DNA from: an uncultured Lachnospiraceae bacterium
Lineage (GTDB): Bacteria; Bacillota; Clostridia; Lachnospirales; Lachnospiraceae
Assembly: GCA_944380185.1 (NCBI GenBank)
Contig: CALWGV010000093.1
Location: forward strand, 1-63,555
Direction of reading: 5' to 3'
Length of the DNA stretch: 63,555 nucleotides
The position numbers and the translations under genes were made by a program. Every line of letters begins with the position of its first letter. The first letter of the stretch is position 1. The notes under the pieces are model-generated. The model was not told the origin of the DNA and did not search any database. It saw only the letters and a list, made by a program, of their open reading frames with translations. Shown here piece after piece: positions 3 through 47,282 of this stretch.

Positions 3-953
3 ATGACCAACGTCATTGTCAATGCCAATGAAGGCGGAGTCCAGACGGCGGAGATCGCCGTGGAGGCCGGACAGACAGCCTGGATTACCGTGGCGGAGGA
101 TCTGAGCGCGGAGGTTTCCTATGAGGCCCCCGACGGGCTCACCGTACCGGAGTATGTGGAGACCTTTACAGTTCATGCCTATGTTCCTCTGGCCTGGAAG
201 ACCGTCGATCTGTGGGCCTGGTCGGCTCCCGACGGCACCAATGCCTTCGAGGCATGGCCGGGAGAGGCGATGGACGAGGGAGAGGACGGCTGGTTTACCG
301 CCCAGTGCCCGACCTGGGGCAACAGCATTATCGTGAGCGGCAACGACGCTGAGGTGCAGACCGAGGATATCTCCATTGAGCCGCAGGAGCTGTGGATTAC
401 CGTCTATGAGGATTTGACCTATGACCTGGTCTATGAAGACCCGACCGTACCTGATGTGGAAAATATCACAGTGCATGTGCAGGCCCCTGCTGACTGGTCT
501 GAACCCTGCCTGTGGGCCTGGTCGGCTCCCGACGGGACCAATGCTTTCTCAGCCTGGCCCGGCGAACCGCTGACGGCGGGTGAGGACGGCTGGTATACTA
601 TAGAAGTACCCGGGTGGATCAACTCCGTGATTGTAAACGGCAATGGCGGAGAGGTACAGACGACAGACATATCCGTGGAACCAGGTCGTGACATATGGCT
701 GGTGGTGGAAGGACCGGAAAGCGTGACTCTTTCCTATGAAGAAGGCGGAGAGGCTGCTTCGGCGGGCGAAACGGAATCTGCCGGGGAGACACAGGCGCAG
801 GCGGAGGAACAGACGGAGGCTCAGACCGAGCCGGCAGAGCAGACGGCTGCTTCTTCCCAGGGGAATACGGCTATTTATGTAGTGATTGTCGCTGTTATTG
901 CGGTGGCGGCGATCGCCGGAGTTGTCATAGCCAAGAAGAAAAAGAAAGAATAA
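3..953 (+). CDS. C-terminal part of a surface starch-binding protein with CBM26-like repeats
   Basis: The gene enters from the left edge, so only its last 316 codons are seen; the ATG at base 3 is probably internal. The protein is built from about 100-residue modules, each with the signature LWAWSAPDGTNAF, then AWPGE and a GEDGW turn, followed by an NS(I/V)IV strand. Two full modules and the end of a third are visible. This pattern resembles starch-binding module CBM26. A Glu/Thr/Ala-rich linker (about residues 245-285) leads to one hydrophobic segment and a KKKKKE tail, so the protein is held in the membrane with the modules outside. With the maltodextrin importer directly downstream, the missing N-terminal part is probably an extracellular amylase; that is inference. 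Confidence 0.75.
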   Translation: MTNVIVNANEGGVQTAEIAVEAGQTAWITVAEDLSAEVSYEAPDGLTVPEYVETFTVHAYVPLAWKTVDLWAWSAPDGTNAFEAWPGEAMDEGEDGWFTAQCPTWGNSIIVSGNDAEVQTEDISIEPQELWITVYEDLTYDLVYEDPTVPDVENITVHVQAPADWSEPCLWAWSAPDGTNAFSAWPGEPLTAGEDGWYTIEVPGWINSVIVNGNGGEVQTTDISVEPGRDIWLVVEGPESVTLSYEEGGEAASAGETESAGETQAQAEEQTEAQTEPAEQTAASSQGNTAIYVVIVAVIAVAAIAGVVIAKKKKKE

Positions 954-981
954 AAACGGAGACAGACAGATAATGACGGAG

Positions 982-1002
982 GCCGCGCCGTAAGGGCGCG
1001 GC
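982..1002 (+). promoter_or_regulatory. GC-rich hairpin between starch-binding gene and binding-protein gene
   Basis: GCCGCGCC (982-989) and GGCGCGGC (995-1002) form a perfect 8-bp stem with a 5-base loop. No T-run follows, so it is not a standard terminator. It may act as an mRNA processing or stability element that sets different levels of the flanking genes. Confidence 0.4.
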
Positions 1003-41727: not shown

Positions 41728-42342
41728 ATGAACAACAAACAGACAAAAAAACAGGGCGAGGCCTTTTGGAGCGCCCGAAAACTGACCGTCATGGGCGTTC
41801 TGGTGGCTCTTCATATTGTGGCCAATCGCCTGCTGGGCATTGATTTGACGCCTTCCCTTCGTCTGACGGTCAGCGGTTCCTTTATCATGCTGGGTGGTTT
41901 TTGGTTCGGACCGGTGAGCGGAGCCCTGGTGGGCGGACTGGCTGACCTGGTGGGCTGTGTGCTGGACGGCTATGCTCCGTATCTGCTGCTGACTGTTTCG
42001 CCGGTTTTAATGGGAGTGCTTGCAGGGCTTTTGGCCCCGGTGATACGTCGCTCAAAGAATATTTTTGTCTATGGTGCGGCTGTGGCGGTTATCGGTATAT
42101 TGACTACCTTTCTGTACAGTTCCTGGAGCTTTTCCGTTCTGTACGGTTCCCCTTTTTGGGTTTATGCAGCCCCCAGAGGTATGCAGACAGCTTTTTCCAC
42201 GGTGCTCAATACCCTTGTGGTATACAGTCTGTATTTGAGCCCGCTGACAGATCTGGTCCGCGGCGGAGAATTTGGCGGTTACAGCCGTCGGGCAAGGCTT
42301 ACAGCGGATAAAACGAACGGAAAGAGGGGCGGCGGGCAATGA
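41728..42342 (+). CDS. folT: Folate ECF transporter substrate-binding component FolT
   Basis: The 204-residue membrane protein has five to six spans with KLTVMGVLVALHIVANRLL at the start and the LRLTVSGSFIMLGGFWFGP and GGLADLVGC motifs of folate-type S components. It works with a shared ECF module not encoded here. The THF riboswitch upstream supports folate as ligand. Its stop overlaps folC by four bases (ATGA). Confidence 0.92.
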   Translation: MNNKQTKKQGEAFWSARKLTVMGVLVALHIVANRLLGIDLTPSLRLTVSGSFIMLGGFWFGPVSGALVGGLADLVGCVLDGYAPYLLLTVSPVLMGVLAGLLAPVIRRSKNIFVYGAAVAVIGILTTFLYSSWSFSVLYGSPFWVYAAPRGMQTAFSTVLNTLVVYSLYLSPLTDLVRGGEFGGYSRRARLTADKTNGKRGGGQ

Positions 42343-43703
42343 CCTATGAAGAAGCGCTCACCTATATTCACAGCGTAATCTGGAGGGGGAAGAGGATCGG
42401 GCTTGGTCGGATCACCGAGCTTCTGCGCCGGATGGGCAATCCGGAGAAAAAGCTCCGCTTTGTCCATGTGGCCGGAACCAACGGCAAGGGTTCCACATCC
42501 GAGATGACGGCCTCCATCCTGCAGGCGGCAGGGTACCGCACCGGCCTGTTTACCTCCCCGTTTATCCATTTTTTTAATGAAAGAATACAGATCAATGGAA
42601 TACCGATTCCCGATGCGGATCTGATCGCCCTCACCGGGGAGATCCGGGAGATTGCCTCCGGGATGGAGGACAAACCCACGGAATTTGAGCTGATCTGTGC
42701 TCTGGGAATGGCATATTTCTATCGCAGCCGCTGCGATATCGTGGTTCTGGAGGTGGGGCTGGGCGGCGAGATGGATTCCACCAATATCATCGACACGCCT
42801 GAGGCAGCGGTGATCTGTGCCCTGGGCTTCGACCATATGAAGGAGCTGGGCTCCACGATGGAGGAGATCGCGGGGGCGAAGGCCGGGATCATCAAGAAAA
42901 ACAGCCGGGTGGTTTTCTACGGGGAGAACGATACGGCCCGGACCGTTATCGAGAAAAAGGTAAGAGAGACGGGGAGCACCCTGGTCATCCCGGACTATCG
43001 TAAGCTGCGGGAGGGAGAGCGGAGCCTCGCGGGGCAGACCTTCTCCTACGGCAGATATGAAAACCTGCATATTCGGCTCCTGGGCACCTATCAGCTGCGC
43101 AATGCGGCCGTGGTGATCGAGACGGTGGAGATACTGCGAAATCGCGGCTTTGCCATCAGCGACGAGGCCCTGCGGGAGGGCCTGGCTAATGCCCGCTGGC
43201 CGGGGCGGTTTGAATTGGTGCGGGAAAATCCCGCCGTCATCGTGGACGGCTCCCACAACCCCCAGGGCATGCGGGCGACGGTGAACAGCCTGCGGGAGTA
43301 TTTTCCGAAAGGCGGCATCGTTTTTCTGGTGGGTGTCCTGGCAGACAAGGACGCCGCCGGGATGATGCGGGAGCTGACGGGATATAAGCGAAGGGACGAG
43401 GCCGAGGGGGCCGGGGCGCAGGCTTCGTCACAACGGTCACAGGAGAGCGGGGAAAAGGCCCCGGAGCTGGCCTCCTGCTATATTACGGTGACCCCGCCCA
43501 GCATGCGGGCCATGGAGGCCGCCGACCTGGCTGCTCTCCTTCGCGGCATGACCGACCGGCCGGTGACGGCGGCGGCAAGCCTTAAAGAGGGCTGCGCCAT
43601 GGCACTGGCGGCCGCAGAGGCCGACGGAGTGGTTTGCGCGATAGGGTCTCTCTATATGGTGGATGAGCTGGAGAAACTGTTTACGGAAAGATCCGGCGGC
43701 TGA
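42339..43703 (+). CDS. folC: Folylpolyglutamate synthase/dihydrofolate synthase
   Basis: The 454-residue enzyme adds glutamates to folate and keeps imported folate in the cell. The ATP loop is HVAGTNGKGSTSEM, with FTSPFIHFFNERI and the VVLEVGLGGEMDSTN motif following. A low-complexity insertion of about 25 residues (around residues 350-375, rich in Glu, Ala, Ser and Gln) lies before the YITVTPPSMRAM segment and is not typical. It is coupled to folT under the THF riboswitch. Confidence 0.93.
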   Translation: MTYEEALTYIHSVIWRGKRIGLGRITELLRRMGNPEKKLRFVHVAGTNGKGSTSEMTASILQAAGYRTGLFTSPFIHFFNERIQINGIPIPDADLIALTGEIREIASGMEDKPTEFELICALGMAYFYRSRCDIVVLEVGLGGEMDSTNIIDTPEAAVICALGFDHMKELGSTMEEIAGAKAGIIKKNSRVVFYGENDTARTVIEKKVRETGSTLVIPDYRKLREGERSLAGQTFSYGRYENLHIRLLGTYQLRNAAVVIETVEILRNRGFAISDEALREGLANARWPGRFELVRENPAVIVDGSHNPQGMRATVNSLREYFPKGGIVFLVGVLADKDAAGMMRELTGYKRRDEAEGAGAQASSQRSQESGEKAPELASCYITVTPPSMRAMEAADLAALLRGMTDRPVTAAASLKEGCAMALAAAEADGVVCAIGSLYMVDELEKLFTERSGG

Positions 43704-43812: not shown

Positions 43813-43854
43813 TGTGATGATATCACAGAGAAAATATCTGCAATCTGCTATATT
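43813..43854 (+). promoter_or_regulatory. CRP/FNR-like palindrome and -10 before the rhodanese gene
   Basis: TGTGATGATATCACA (43813-43827) has TGTGA and TCACA arms with a 5-base centre. TATATT (43849-43854) lies at a distance that puts the palindrome centre about 41 bases before the likely start site, the class II activator position. ATATCTG/CAGATAT (43834-43840, 43856-43862) is a further inverted repeat. Confidence 0.5.
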
Positions 43855-43886
43855 ACAGATATCAACAGAGATATGGAGGAGTCAGC

Positions 43887-44285
43887 ATGAAGAAAATTAT
43901 TTTCTTTTTGATGGCAGCGTTGTTTTTAGGCGGCTGCACAACGCCGCCGCAAGAAAATTCCTATCGCCAGGTCAGTGCCGAAGAAGCCATTGCCTTGATG
44001 GAAGAAGAAAGCGATTATATCATTTTAGATGTGCGAACGGAAGCAGAATATAACGAAAAGCATATTCCAAACGCGGTCAACATTCCGAACGAAACCATTG
44101 GCACACAAGAAATCCCGGAGCTGCCGGATAAAGAGCAATTAATCCTGGTGTATTGCCGCAGCGGCAACCGAAGCAAGCAGGCCTCGGAAAAACTTGCGGC
44201 CCTGGGTTATACCAACATTGTGGAATTCGGCGGCATCAACAGCTGGCCGGGCGAAACGGTCACGGGCAGCCCGTCTCAAAATTGA
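43887..44285 (+). CDS. Rhodanese-domain lipoprotein
   Basis: The 132-residue protein has a lipoprotein signal (FLGGC lipobox, Cys18) and a single rhodanese domain with LDVRTEAEYNEKHIPNAVNI and active-site loop CRSGNRS. It would carry persulfide sulfur on the outer face of the membrane. TATGGAGGAGTCAGC precedes the ATG. Glu codons are almost all GAA, unlike the GAG-rich genes around, which suggests transfer. It is the first of three closely spaced genes with two Fe-S proteins. Confidence 0.88.
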   Translation: MKKIIFFLMAALFLGGCTTPPQENSYRQVSAEEAIALMEEESDYIILDVRTEAEYNEKHIPNAVNIPNETIGTQEIPELPDKEQLILVYCRSGNRSKQASEKLAALGYTNIVEFGGINSWPGETVTGSPSQN

Positions 44286-44310
44286 GCGGATAAAACGGGA
44301 GGAGCCTATT

Positions 44311-44520
44311 ATGTGCAAAATAAAAAAGAAACGAAAGGCCTTTGTTCAACAGACAGACTGTGTCGCTTGCGGATGCTGCGTGAAAGTATGTCCGCTGGGA
44401 GCCATTCAGGTTGTGAAAGGCATCATGGCAGAGGTGAACATGGAAAAGTGCGTCGGCTGCGGCAAATGTGCAAAAGAATGCCCTGCGAGCGTAATCGAAG
44501 TCAGGGAGGTGGAAATTTGA
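44311..44520 (+). CDS. Small 2[4Fe-4S] ferredoxin
   Basis: The 69-residue protein has two 4Fe-4S motifs, CVACGCCVKVCP and CVGCGKCAKECP, so it is an 8-Fe ferredoxin-type electron carrier. GGGAGGAG precedes the ATG at 44311; the frame is open upstream through the rhodanese gene in another phase but without signal. The stop overlaps the TTG start of the next gene (TTGA). No export signal, so it should be cytoplasmic and could feed electrons to the membrane Fe-S protein. Confidence 0.9.
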   Translation: MCKIKKKRKAFVQQTDCVACGCCVKVCPLGAIQVVKGIMAEVNMEKCVGCGKCAKECPASVIEVREVEI

Positions 44521-45086
44521 AAAAGCATTGGTATGATTACCTATGGATTTTTTCTCTTACGTATTTAGTTTTAGGCTTTTTCAACATTCTATTTGCATGG
44601 CTCGGGCTGCTCTGCTTCTTCTTGCCCCTGCTTATTTCCCTGATAAAAGGGACAAAAGGATACTGCAACCGATACTGCGGCCGAGGGCAGCTGTTCGGTT
44701 TGCTGGGCGGCCGTTTTGGCCTTTCTCGTAAAAAAGATATTCCCCTCTGGATGAAGAGCAAGGGATTCCGGTATGGATTTTTAGTATTCTTTTTGACGAT
44801 GTTCTTTCTTATGCTTTGGAATACATATCTGGTATTTGCCGGTGCGCAGGATCTCAAACAAGTGGTCACGCTGTTGTGGACTTTCAAAGTACCGTGGCAA
44901 TGGGCTTACCATGGAACGCTATTTCATGAAGCGATTGCTCAATTTGCCTTTGGCTTTTACAGCGTTATGCTGACCTCCACCGTGCTGGGGCTGATTACCA
45001 TGATCCTGTTCAAGCCGCGCAGCTGGTGCGTCTACTGCCCTATGGGAACGATGACGCAGCTAATCTGCAAAGTAAAAAACCGTTAA
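44517..45086 (+). CDS. Membrane 4Fe-4S protein, NapH-like
   Basis: The 189-residue protein starts at TTG 44517 with GGAGGTGG six bases upstream, coupled to the ferredoxin gene. It has about four to five membrane spans and two Cys groups: CNRYCGRGQLF between the first spans and SWCVYCPMGTMTQ near the C terminus. This layout resembles NapH/NosR-type membrane electron-transfer proteins but in a minimal form. With the ferredoxin and the external rhodanese it could move electrons across the membrane to a sulfur reaction; that is inference. Codon use is AT-rich compared with surroundings. Confidence 0.8.
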   Translation: MKKHWYDYLWIFSLTYLVLGFFNILFAWLGLLCFFLPLLISLIKGTKGYCNRYCGRGQLFGLLGGRFGLSRKKDIPLWMKSKGFRYGFLVFFLTMFFLMLWNTYLVFAGAQDLKQVVTLLWTFKVPWQWAYHGTLFHEAIAQFAFGFYSVMLTSTVLGLITMILFKPRSWCVYCPMGTMTQLICKVKNR

Positions 45087-45104
45087 CCGGAAACCTATAA
45101 TCGA

Positions 45105-45120
45105 TGTGATGGTTGTCACA
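45105..45120. promoter_or_regulatory. CRP/FNR-type palindrome TGTGA-N6-TCACA
   Basis: TGTGATGGTTGTCACA matches the ideal CRP/FNR-family half-site pair with a 6-base centre. It lies 19 bases after the membrane Fe-S gene and 34 bases before a promoter. Confidence 0.55.
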
Positions 45121-45153
45121 GAAGTAATTCCTTAGCGAGAGTAGGCTTGCCCC

Positions 45154-45182
45154 TTGACAGCGCAGCCTTATGCTGGTATGCT
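45154..45182 (+). promoter_or_regulatory. Near-consensus promoter
   Basis: TTGACA (45154-45159), 17 bases, TATGCT (45177-45182). The transcript would run through the leader of the ABC-F gene. Confidence 0.65.
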
Positions 45183-45216
45183 GAAAAAGACGAGAGGACA
45201 CATAGAATTTTCCCCG

Positions 45217-45264
45217 ATGGAAATGTATGCGAAGCCTTCGTCCCGCGGCAGCCGCGGTAAATAA
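45217..45264 (+). other. Possible 15-codon leader peptide and GC hairpin
   Basis: The frame encodes MEMYAKPSSRGSRGK and ends in TAA. CCGCGG (45243-45248) and CCGCGG (45252-45257) form a hairpin over its last codons. The ribosome-binding site is weak (GAGAGG about 20 bases upstream). It could be an attenuation leader, but coding is not proven. Confidence 0.3.
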
Positions 45265-45471
45265 AATCAATAGAAAAGAGGTGTGAGGATGATTTGACTC
45301 TTTCCCGGAACAAAAAATGCGATAAATACGATGTAATAATGTACAATCAAAATGATTGGATTTATCGGATTGCCGTTATCGGCCAGGGAAGAAGTCTATC
45401 CTCATGTTTTCCAAAAAATAGAAATGCAGCTGACCGATACCGTCCGGCTGTTCCTTCTGCCATATAGACAG

Positions 45472-45487
45472 ACACGGATATCCGTGT
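45472..45487. promoter_or_regulatory. 16-bp perfect palindrome
   Basis: ACACGGATATCCGTGT is fully self-complementary with no spacer. As DNA it would suit a dimeric repressor; as RNA it would need to open a loop. Confidence 0.45.
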
Positions 45488-45529
45488 GCGTCCATATCCA
45501 TGGCAAAGGGTGACCCAGCCACCGCCTGC

Positions 45530-45586
45530 ATGATAAGTATGGAAAGAGAGAGCGACAGAACATTCCTGCCGCTCTTTTTTACGTGA
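45530..45586 (+). other. Candidate upstream ORF across the attenuator
   Basis: An 18-codon frame encodes MISMERESDRTFLPLFFT and its codons span both arms of the terminator hairpin at 45549-45580. Ribosome stalling on it would keep the terminator from forming. No strong Shine-Dalgarno sequence is seen, so translation is uncertain. Confidence 0.4.
45549..45580 (+). terminator. Leader terminator upstream of the ABC-F gene
   Basis: AGAGCGACAG (45549-45558) pairs with CTGCCGCTCT (45566-45575) with one A-C mismatch, followed by a T-run. Located 145 bases before the ABC-F start codon, it would act as an attenuator. Confidence 0.65.
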
Positions 45587-45590
45587 TAGT

Positions 45591-45656
45591 CCCGGCAGGC
45601 AGCTGTGCAAGGAGACAGCACGAAGTGCTGGTTCCTCCGCACAGATATCTGCCGGG
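45591..45656 (+). promoter_or_regulatory. Alternative hairpins of the ABC-F attenuator
   Basis: CCCGGCAG (45591-45598) can pair with CTGCCGGG (45649-45656), enclosing CTGTGC/GCACAG and CAGCAC/GTGCTG. The same left arm, as CGGCAGG, can instead pair with CCTGCCG (45565-45571), which would break the terminator. These exclusive pairings are the mark of an attenuation switch. Confidence 0.55.
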
Positions 45657-45725
45657 TAAGGCGAAATGAGTACGCAGGCCGACAGGCCGGAGTACGGCAG
45701 TCCTGAAAAAGCGAGGTGAATCGAT

Positions 45726-47282
45726 ATGTCAGTAATCACAGTGAACGATCTGACCTTCGCCTATGAGGGCAGCTATGACAATGTCTTTGAGCATGTTTCT
45801 TTTCGGCTGGATACGGACTGGAGACTGGGGCTGATTGGACGAAACGGAAGAGGGAAAACCACGCTTCTGCGGCTTTTAATGGGACAGTATGAATACAGCG
45901 GTTCCATCGTCTCGCCGGTGGGTTTTGACTATTTTCCCTTTGCCGTAGAAAATACGGAGCAGGAGACCTGGGAGGTGGCTGCCGGGATAAACCCGGAGCT
46001 GGAGCTGTGGCAGCTGCAAAAGGAGATCGGGCGCCTGGGGGTAAAGGAAGAGACGCTGTACCGTCCTTTTAAAACACTCTCCCAGGGCGAGCAGACGAAG
46101 GTGCTCCTGGCGGTGCTTTTCCTGCGGGAGAATGCTTTCCTGCTGATCGACGAGCCCACCAACCATCTGGACCGGGAGGCGCGCAAGGTTCTGGGAGCCT
46201 ATCTGCGGACGAAAAAAGGATTTATGCTGGTTTCCCATGACAGGCAGCTTTTGGATACCTGCGTAGATCATGTTCTGTCCTTTAACCGGGAGGTAATCGA
46301 GGTGAGCCAAGGCAACTTTACTTCCTGGAACGAAAACCGGGAGCGGAGGGAGCGATACGAGACAGCGGAGAATGAGAGATTAAAAAAGGATATTCGCCGC
46401 CTGGAGGCGGCAGCCCGCCAGGCCCATGCCTGGGCGGACCGGACGGAGGCGCAGAAAATCGGCAGCGGTTACGCCGACCGCGCTTATCTGGGAGAGCAGT
46501 CCCGGCGGATGCAGAGCCGCCGCAAGAACCTGGAAAAGCGGCAGCAGGCAGCCATCGAGGAGAAGAGCAGCCTGCTGCGCAATGTGGAAACGGCGGAGAC
46601 GCTGAAGCTTTATCCGCTGCGGCACCACAAGGAGGTGCTGGCCGCATGGAACGAGGTAACCCTGGGCTATGGAAATATCTCTGTCTGCCAGGGCTTTTCC
46701 CTGACCGTAAGACAGGGAGAGAGGATTGCCCTCCAGGGAAAGAACGGCTGCGGCAAGTCCACGGTGCTGAAAGCTTTGCTGGCTGCGGCGGGAACCAGGC
46801 CGGAGGAGCAGAAAGAAGAGAGGGGGCAGGATGGAGATAGAAAGGCGGAGCAGAACGGAAAGGCGCAGAGCGGAACGGTTCTGGTGAAAAGCGGGCAGCT
46901 GCGTCTTGCCTCCGGTCTTAAAATATCCTATGTTTCTCAGGATACTTCCGGCCTGCGCGGAAGTTTGAACGACTATATCGAGGCCTGCCAGGCCGACCGG
47001 ACCCTTTTTCTGGCTCTTCTTCGCAAGCTGGATTTTCCCAGAGTGCAGTTTGAAAAGCGGATGGAGGATTACAGTGAAGGACAGAAAAAGAAGGTGCTGA
47101 TAGCCCGCAGTCTCTGCGAACCGTCGCACCTCTATATCTGGGATGAGCCTTTAAATTATGTGGATGTATTCTCCCGGATGCAGATCGAAGAACTGATCCT
47201 TTCCTGCCGGCCGACCTTACTGTTCGTGGAGCACGACCAGGCGTTTACGGACCGGATTGCCACCAGGGTTGTGCAGCTGTAA
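45726..47282 (+). CDS. ABC-F ribosomal protection protein, Lsa family type
   Basis: The 518-residue protein has two ATPase domains without membrane spans. The first has GRNGRGKTTLLRLL and LSQGEQTKV; the second has GKNGCGKSTVLKALL and YSEGQKKKVLIA. The start ITVNDLTFAYEGSYDNVFE and the short linker match the Lsa branch, which frees ribosomes from lincosamides, pleuromutilins and streptogramin A. A charged, low-complexity insert of about 25 residues follows the second Walker A. The attenuator-like leader is typical of antibiotic-induced ABC-F genes. Actual resistance is not proven by sequence. Confidence 0.85.
   Translation: MSVITVNDLTFAYEGSYDNVFEHVSFRLDTDWRLGLIGRNGRGKTTLLRLLMGQYEYSGSIVSPVGFDYFPFAVENTEQETWEVAAGINPELELWQLQKEIGRLGVKEETLYRPFKTLSQGEQTKVLLAVLFLRENAFLLIDEPTNHLDREARKVLGAYLRTKKGFMLVSHDRQLLDTCVDHVLSFNREVIEVSQGNFTSWNENRERRERYETAENERLKKDIRRLEAAARQAHAWADRTEAQKIGSGYADRAYLGEQSRRMQSRRKNLEKRQQAAIEEKSSLLRNVETAETLKLYPLRHHKEVLAAWNEVTLGYGNISVCQGFSLTVRQGERIALQGKNGCGKSTVLKALLAAAGTRPEEQKEERGQDGDRKAEQNGKAQSGTVLVKSGQLRLASGLKISYVSQDTSGLRGSLNDYIEACQADRTLFLALLRKLDFPRVQFEKRMEDYSEGQKKKVLIARSLCEPSHLYIWDEPLNYVDVFSRMQIEELILSCRPTLLFVEHDQAFTDRIATRVVQL

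Follow-up and report, generated by a model that had tools for sequence, protein, structure and literature searches.

Three adjacent genes of an uncultured Lachnospiraceae bacterium, coding for a lipoprotein rhodanese, a ferredoxin, and a small membrane Fe-S protein, appear to be part of a widespread and apparently undescribed sulfur/thiol redox gene set of the Clostridia that has a common genetic switch. They lie on contig C93 of the host assembly (G000; 2.9 Mb, 84% complete), of which the 63,555 bases analyzed are referred to here as the window, flanked by folC (42339-43703) on one side and an ABC-F gene (45726-47282) on the other, both recognized by eye. The rhodanese gene (43887..44285, plus strand; 132 aa) was identified with Pfam (E 1.3e-19), has the loop CRSGNRS, and shows a lipobox, LGGC, by eye. 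It is followed on the same strand by a 2[4Fe-4S] ferredoxin gene (44311..44520; 69 aa) with a Fer4-type Pfam match and by a gene with a TTG start for a small NapH-like membrane Fe-S protein (44517..45086; 189 aa), which carries the motifs C50-x3-C54-G and C171-x2-C174-P. The gap between the rhodanese and ferredoxin genes is 25 bp, and the ferredoxin and membrane genes overlap by 4 bp, the TTG start lying over the ferredoxin stop codon. The three genes read as one transcription unit, and all the members of the coupled trio proposed in the initial annotation were recovered within it.

Upstream of the unit there is a 15-bp palindrome with a spacer of 5, TGTGATGATATCACA (43813..43827, plus strand), in the form conserved upstream of related ferredoxin genes, which is probably the operator for an activator of the Crp/Fnr family. 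A -10 box, TATATT (43849..43854, plus strand), stands at an offset kept in the relatives and places the operator center (43820) at about -41, the class II position for Crp/Fnr activators. The window contains two matches to TGTGA-N(4-8)-TCACA versus 0.19 expected, but the mere presence of a loose palindrome proves little, because the whole host genome gave 12 matches per strand versus 5 for a reversed control pattern. We scanned 116 loci, comprising 80 from a named collection (the best 80 of 558 relatives of the membrane protein) and 36 others (three of them plasmid-borne), over up to 423 bases each, the scanned stretch running to some 190 bases short of the ferredoxin stop codon, and took the random expectation from 50 Markov-random versions. 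Among these loci, which are related to each other so that neither these counts nor those of neighboring genes are independent trials, the exact TGTGA-N5-TCACA was present in 36 (random mean, 0.04), a number that rose to 89 (random mean, 1.06) when one mismatch was allowed; in the ferredoxin upstream regions of the other 27 of the 116, no such site was found. At one mismatch, a spacer of 6 was present in none of the 116 loci, and none of the remaining spacers between 2 and 9 in more than two.

When 85 sequences were aligned on the site (83 loci, the window, and the site on contig C61 described below; 6 of the 89 were dropped with the site too near the end of the stretch), a TATAAT-like box with at least five of six matches appeared at one offset in 53, and each of the other 44 offsets gave nine or fewer. 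The base counts of the anchored sites led to the consensus TGTGAYnnnRTCACA. The window's own site is exact, and its TATATT stands at the same offset as in the relatives. By sequence, this is the geometry of a class II Crp/Fnr promoter, with a site near -41.5 at a fixed distance from the -10 box, so the Crp/Fnr-like site near -41 that had been claimed for this position was borne out. As the site stands before the rhodanese gene, the whole unit should be under operator control.

The ferredoxin and membrane genes were found together, on the same strand, in all of the 80 loci read (the best 80 of 558; 18 of them with short flanks). This pair is the fixed core and the rhodanese an occasional partner, since a lipoprotein rhodanese was seen by eye on the same strand near the pair in only 8 of these best 80 loci, six times after the pair and twice about 3 kb before it. 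The exact three-gene order of the window recurred only in the congener G004, in a broken copy. Thus, from the linkage of three genes that was to be checked, the pair stood and the constant presence of the rhodanese did not. Within 4 kb of the pair, the same 80 loci (best 80 of 558) contained thioredoxin-fold proteins (27 loci), small rhodaneses (15, counting the 8 lipoproteins), and CoADR-rhodaneses (10), with any of the three in 38 and any of these or the regulator in 48. No thioredoxin-fold, rhodanese, or CoADR match was found at this distance in 42 of the 80, a set in which 18 have short flanks. DsbD/CcdA-like and ResA-like cluster proteins were each found in four of the 80, one member of each cluster having been checked. 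Three loci (L083, L088, and L122) have the order ferredoxin, membrane protein, thioredoxin, small rhodanese, CoADR-rhodanese, and convergent regulator, and the locus of Flintibacter muris DSM 110149 (L128) has a one-mismatch site, the pair, a CoADR-rhodanese, and the regulator. The sulfur context suggested initially is supported by the thioredoxin, rhodanese, and CoADR-rhodanese genes near related pairs and behind a site of the same form on C61.

Other genes were seen beside the pair in single loci. In L058, two half-size ArsP_1-type permease genes (998-1480 and 456-998, minus strand) lie between the membrane gene and the thioredoxin gene, and a similar-looking permease pair (by eye) follows the distant membrane-protein relative in L021. 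Short-chain dehydrogenases follow the ferredoxin-membrane pair in L042 and L043.

A Crp/Fnr gene was present within 4 kb of the pair in 31 of the best 80 of 558 loci. Every one of these 31 genes is on the strand opposite to the pair, and 29 stand behind the membrane gene. The relative of this regulator in the host lies on another contig (G000:C61:1396-2157), scores 230 bits to the regulator of locus L060, and has the domains PF13545 and PF00027. Its best solved match was 3DV8 (1.2e-57), which covers query residues 40-250 of 253, nearly the whole length, and is described in the available text of PMC6955866 as a Crp/Fnr protein of Eubacterium rectale. C79, C113, and C119 (host-genome numbering) were invariant in five aligned regulators, and these conserved cysteines may sense redox or sulfur. 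Behind the C61 regulator come the site GGTGATTCGGTCACA, with TATACT at the same offset as in the other promoters, then a thioredoxin gene (WCGPC, 101 aa), and then a CoADR-rhodanese gene (G000:C61 2678-4405; 575 aa). The product of the last is 60% identical to that of L083 and matches solved CoA-disulfide/CoA-persulfide reductases with a rhodanese domain (3icr, 7.6e-174; 8a56, 5.2e-154). One-mismatch sites numbered 33 in the host genome versus 16 for the reversed control pattern, so many single-mismatch genome sites must be chance; for the C61 site, location and -10 box count as much as the sequence itself. As the regulator, a matching site, and the thioredoxin and CoADR-rhodanese genes are located on another contig of this genome, the three-gene unit seems to form one arm of a sulfane-sulfur/thiol redox regulon that is split between contigs. 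Among the genomes of the family, the regulator (E 1e-25) was present in 52 of 75 with the membrane protein versus 91 of 322 without it (Fisher P 8e-11, not corrected for phylogeny); no match at 1e-25 was found in the other 23 of the 75.

Two further one-mismatch sites of the host genome were observed upstream of other kinds of genes. Some 145 bp separate a spacer-5 site at G000:C88:7592 (L219 3093) from the downstream gene of a YjjI-like glycyl radical enzyme; this gene is followed by an overlapping frame resembling a radical-SAM activase (by eye). The second site precedes a rubrerythrin gene by about 300 bp.

Of all the parts of the set, the rhodanese is the one most weakly tied to the rest. 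Its nearest solved structure was 6mxv (2.6e-26), and PspE (2jtq) also matched (6.1e-13). A match at 1e-25 was found in 77 of 397 family genomes, and co-occurrence with the membrane protein was not significant across these 397 (19 of 75 versus 58 of 322 genomes, P 0.15). None of 29 other rhodanese loci, in the 2 to 3.4 kb examined of each, had the membrane gene; among them were thioredoxin in six, a short-chain dehydrogenase in four, the regulator in two, and a site within 250 bp upstream in three. The closer relatives L233, L237, and L239 carry the upstream site, and L237 and L239, both lipoproteins, also have thioredoxin and the regulator nearby; another, L240, has a CoADR-like frame beside it (by eye). 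A selenoprotein rhodanese was also considered and rejected, as the loop reads CRSGNRS in the four best TGA-bearing matches (L230-L232 and L238); the stop in L230 is near the C terminus. In L230, L231, and L238, the gene directly upstream of the lipoprotein rhodanese codes for a short-chain dehydrogenase and has a spacer-5 site close to its start; a thioredoxin is nearby.

For the membrane protein, Fer4_5 (PF12801) gave 21.7 bits on the window sequence versus a curated cut-off of 22.0; 11 of 14 relatives reached E 1e-3 with it, 2.7e-7 being the best value, and no NCBIfam match was found at E 1e-3. C50, C54, C171, and C174 were invariant in 21 aligned rows (window included), down to ca. 30% identity. 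The first motif, CX3C-G in the window, ends in P in 2 of the 21 rows (the script missed it in one), and the second is CX2CP in all 21, so the window protein, with CX3C-G and CX2CP, departs from the two CX3CP motifs expected of NapH-like proteins. Lysine and arginine residues number nine in the C50/C54 loop, five in the C171/C174 tail, and two in the outer loop, and hydropathy and charges fit four helices with the cysteines in the cytosol, which is the orientation predicted for the invariant residues. The AlphaFold model was poor (pLDDT 69.8), and Foldseek found no match for it at E 0.001. A single cluster or two dithiols could be formed with these four cysteines; the available text of PMC5928378 leaves the choice between cluster and dithiol undecided for the related motifs CX3CP, its authors thinking disulfides likelier. 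No outward-facing redox center or cofactor was found in the unit, so a path to external sulfur needs a further partner or route. The electron passage across the membrane to external sulfur, as first proposed, is hypothetical. Distant relatives of the membrane protein, with ca. 30% identity, occur in L021, L022, and L023; a true CX3CP first motif in L021 and L022 links the family to NapH-type proteins, and L022 has a thioredoxin-reductase-like gene upstream (by eye).

The genes, the operator form, the promoter geometry, a regulator gene that adjoins the pair or lies elsewhere in the genome, and the common gene content are the observed basis for a reading to which we would give an even chance, namely, that the unit belongs to a Crp/Fnr-switched sulfane-sulfur/thiol redox regulon of gut-type Clostridia with the following mechanism. 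A 3DV8-type Crp/Fnr activator would bind TGTGAYnnnRTCACA at -41 and switch on both the genes for thioredoxin, small rhodaneses, and CoADR-rhodanese and the unit in the window. At the outer face, the lipid-anchored rhodanese would take up sulfane sulfur (thiosulfate, polysulfide, or persulfide). An electron relay bound to the membrane, made up of the ferredoxin and the NapH-like protein with four invariant cysteines at the inner face, would supply this sulfur or disulfide reduction with low-potential electrons drawn from the ferredoxin pool, and thioredoxin and CoADR-rhodanese would complete persulfide reduction in the cytosol. What we infer comprises regulator binding at these sites, the identity of signal and substrates, the direction in which electrons flow, and any transfer through the membrane. 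We regard as improbable a version in which the pair is a quinone-free conduit that carries ferredoxin electrons through the 189-aa protein to the sulfane sulfur of the outer-face rhodanese (or to flavoproteins), with a thiol/persulfide-sensing Crp/Fnr subfamily running a cst-like regulon across gut Clostridia.

Alternatively, though we consider this rather unlikely, the same pair could be a general quinone-free conduit through which electrons of reduced ferredoxin reach flavinylated reductases outside the cytosol, with secondary roles for the rhodanese and for the control by Crp/Fnr. The host seems rich in extracytosolic flavinylated proteins, with 30 FMN_bind matches above the cut-off in large open frames, and UbiA prenyltransferase was unmatched in its genome and matched in all 14 control genomes, from which it follows that flavinylated enzymes would need a quinone-independent donor. 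For the same reason, a NapH-type quinol partner is unlikely, with the reservation, which also weighs against the conduit to flavinylated reductases, that the assembly is just 84% complete. NapH-like proteins are widely paired with flavinylated proteins, according to the available text of PMC8238504, and the 42 of the best 80 of 558 loci without thioredoxin-fold, rhodanese, or CoADR genes nearby would also be accommodated. However, FMN_bind is absent from the three genes, and none of the 30 host matches lies on C93; among the clusters recurring in at least 4 of the best 80 of 558 loci (judged by eye, some by Pfam), none was clearly a flavinylated protein, and, through the form of its operator, the pair is linked to thioredoxin and CoADR genes. 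One FMN_bind frame lies on C61, ca. 9 kb from the CoADR gene. That the unit instead serves the maintenance of Fe-S clusters or sulfur carriers, with the rhodanese and the pair delivering the sulfur and the electrons needed to repair Fe-S clusters during redox stress, seems distinctly unlikely to us. DUF134-type genes lie near the pair in some loci (in the one checked, L154, DUF134 together with Nitro_FeMo-Co), and by eye there is a Mrp-type ATPase in L060 and a SelD-like gene in L017, but the rhodanese is a predicted lipoprotein and would hence be outside the cytosol, and no Isc or Suf genes were noticed on inspection of the neighborhoods.

We place still less weight on a plain oxidative or nitrosative stress regulon of the HcpR type, in which the sulfur genes would be merely general thiol defense, and hold it to be very unlikely. 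The HcpR of Desulfovibrio has the site wTGTGAnnnnnnTCACAw and a ferredoxin-like target in the available text of PMC1274295, so it shares with the present set a Crp/Fnr regulator, the TGTGA/TCACA half-sites, and a ferredoxin-like target. The rubrerythrin gene with its one-mismatch site would fit such a regulon, and, by analogy, so would the H2O2 sensitivity of the mutant of PgRsp, a Porphyromonas protein modeled on 3DV8, as given in the same partial source for that structure (PMC6955866). Against it, the spacer is 5 here versus 6 in HcpR, and sites with spacer 6 were present in 0 of 116 loci at one mismatch, and by this spacer-6 motif we rejected membership in the Desulfovibrio HcpR regulon. 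The HcpR2 motif that it gives for most HcpR2 genomes is GTAACnnnnGTTAC. In addition, thioredoxin, rhodanese, and CoADR genes are linked to the pair here, and no hcp gene was noticed on inspection of the neighbors.

CstR, the regulator of cst operons, is a repressor of the CsoR family. The cst and cst-like operons of Staphylococcus aureus and Enterococcus faecalis contain CstR, sulfurtransferases, and a CoA-persulfide reductase, and in E. faecalis CstR acts as a persulfide sensor that controls two sulfurtransferases and the CoA-persulfide reductase (PMC9405070, in the text available). Like them, the gene set described here has rhodaneses and a CoADR-rhodanese under one regulator, with 8a56 matching the host protein at the value given above; a predicted CoA-persulfide reductase stands behind the spacer-5 site on C61, and CoADR-rhodaneses lie near the pair in 10 of the best 80 of 558 loci. 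It differs from what that source describes in that the linked regulator is a Crp/Fnr protein at class II sites, probably an activator by the position of the site, and not a CstR repressor, in the added thioredoxin, ferredoxin, and membrane Fe-S protein, and in being split over two loci in the host genome. The set may thus work like a cst operon without being a member. The NapH/NosR/PceC membrane module, characterized by PF12801 and CX3CP motifs in the available parts of PMC5928378 and PMC8238504, resembles the membrane protein in its probable four helices, the cysteine motifs at helix ends, the PF12801-like end, and the paired 2[4Fe-4S] protein. In contrast to the module as presented there, the window protein has only 189 aa, the motifs CX3C-G and CX2CP, a separate ferredoxin gene, and no FMN domain, and comes from a genome without a UbiA match. 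We recognized no description of this gene set in the literature searched, which agrees with the failure of the initial annotation to match it to a described system.

A second palindrome (45105-45120, spacer 6), which had been taken for a regulatory site after the last gene, is probably a chance match within a gene relic. This relic (45100..45135, plus strand) reads IDVMVVTEVIP-stop, is BlaR1/M56-like, and matches G004:C215 (L172 881-921), where the counterpart ends a 304-aa frame that runs open at the contig edge and has an M56 (BlaR1) domain, and where the half-sites are CGTGA and TCGCA. An operator role of the palindrome is not supported, as it is part of a coding relic, nonpalindromic in the congener, and of a spacing found in 0 of 116 upstream regions at one mismatch. 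Outside the module, a promoter-like sequence TTGACA-17-TATGCT (45154..45182, plus strand), of a type found four times versus 3.0 expected, is kept in the congeners G004 and G001 and probably serves the downstream ABC-F gene. Between this promoter-like sequence and the ABC-F gene, within 45121-45725 of the window, there is a leader of ca. 540 bases. It is well conserved in G004 and in part also in G001, and near 45548-45582 a hairpin with T residues behind it can be seen by eye. The leader may regulate the ABC-F gene by attenuation.

The membrane protein matched 16 of 61 related genomes at E 0.001 (its own included, several weakly) and 80 of 397 sampled family genomes, or 75 without the five whose best E was >1e-20; some of these 75 carry fragments or stop-containing copies. 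Mediterraneibacter-type Lachnospiraceae are among the rows nearest by path to the window's protein, and its closest intact relatives (82 to 89% identical) sit in other genera. Plasmids of Selenomonas ruminantium, Butyrivibrio fibrisolvens, and Vescimonas fastidiosa carry relatives with 60 to 63% identity. Among six congeners, only G004 had a match, three of the other five being <90% complete. The copy in G004 (C64, L174) has an internal deletion across the ferredoxin and membrane genes and has lost the end of the latter, with the rhodanese frame intact. In the congener G001, a sequence like the ABC-F leader begins within ca. 150 bp after folC and the module is absent. A membrane gene with stop codons and a shortened regulator frame (by eye) were observed in G271:C2 (L063). 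The module is apparently acquired and lost with ease, and its horizontal spread is likely from the patchy distribution, the plasmid copies, and the apparent empty site in the congener, in line with the transfer claimed initially; loss of the module is a possible alternative for G001.

The claim of atypical codon usage held for the rhodanese, with a GAA/GAG ratio of 14/2 versus 35% GAA pooled over 48 window open reading frames (ORFs) (binomial P 2e-5), but not for GC3, which in the module (0.567) is 1.3 standard deviations below the window mean (0.635; standard deviation, 0.052). GC3 was as low as this in 6 of the 48 ORFs, one of them the module's own membrane frame. The G+C content of the module is 0.474, most window ORFs being near 0.55. 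Its composition is mildly atypical against the window background, which is not decisive.

Sulfide, polysulfides, and persulfides surround the Clostridia of the gut, and little is known of how strict anaerobes sense and clear these compounds. With the common operator form, a regulator of the 3DV8 type, for which a structure has been solved, and the compact gene set, the question can be put to direct tests in named genomes of the cultured type, such as that of Flintibacter muris DSM 110149. If true, the sulfane-sulfur/thiol redox regulon would provide a function for the pair of ferredoxin and membrane Fe-S protein, the latter present in 75 of the 397 sampled genomes of the family (E <1e-20).
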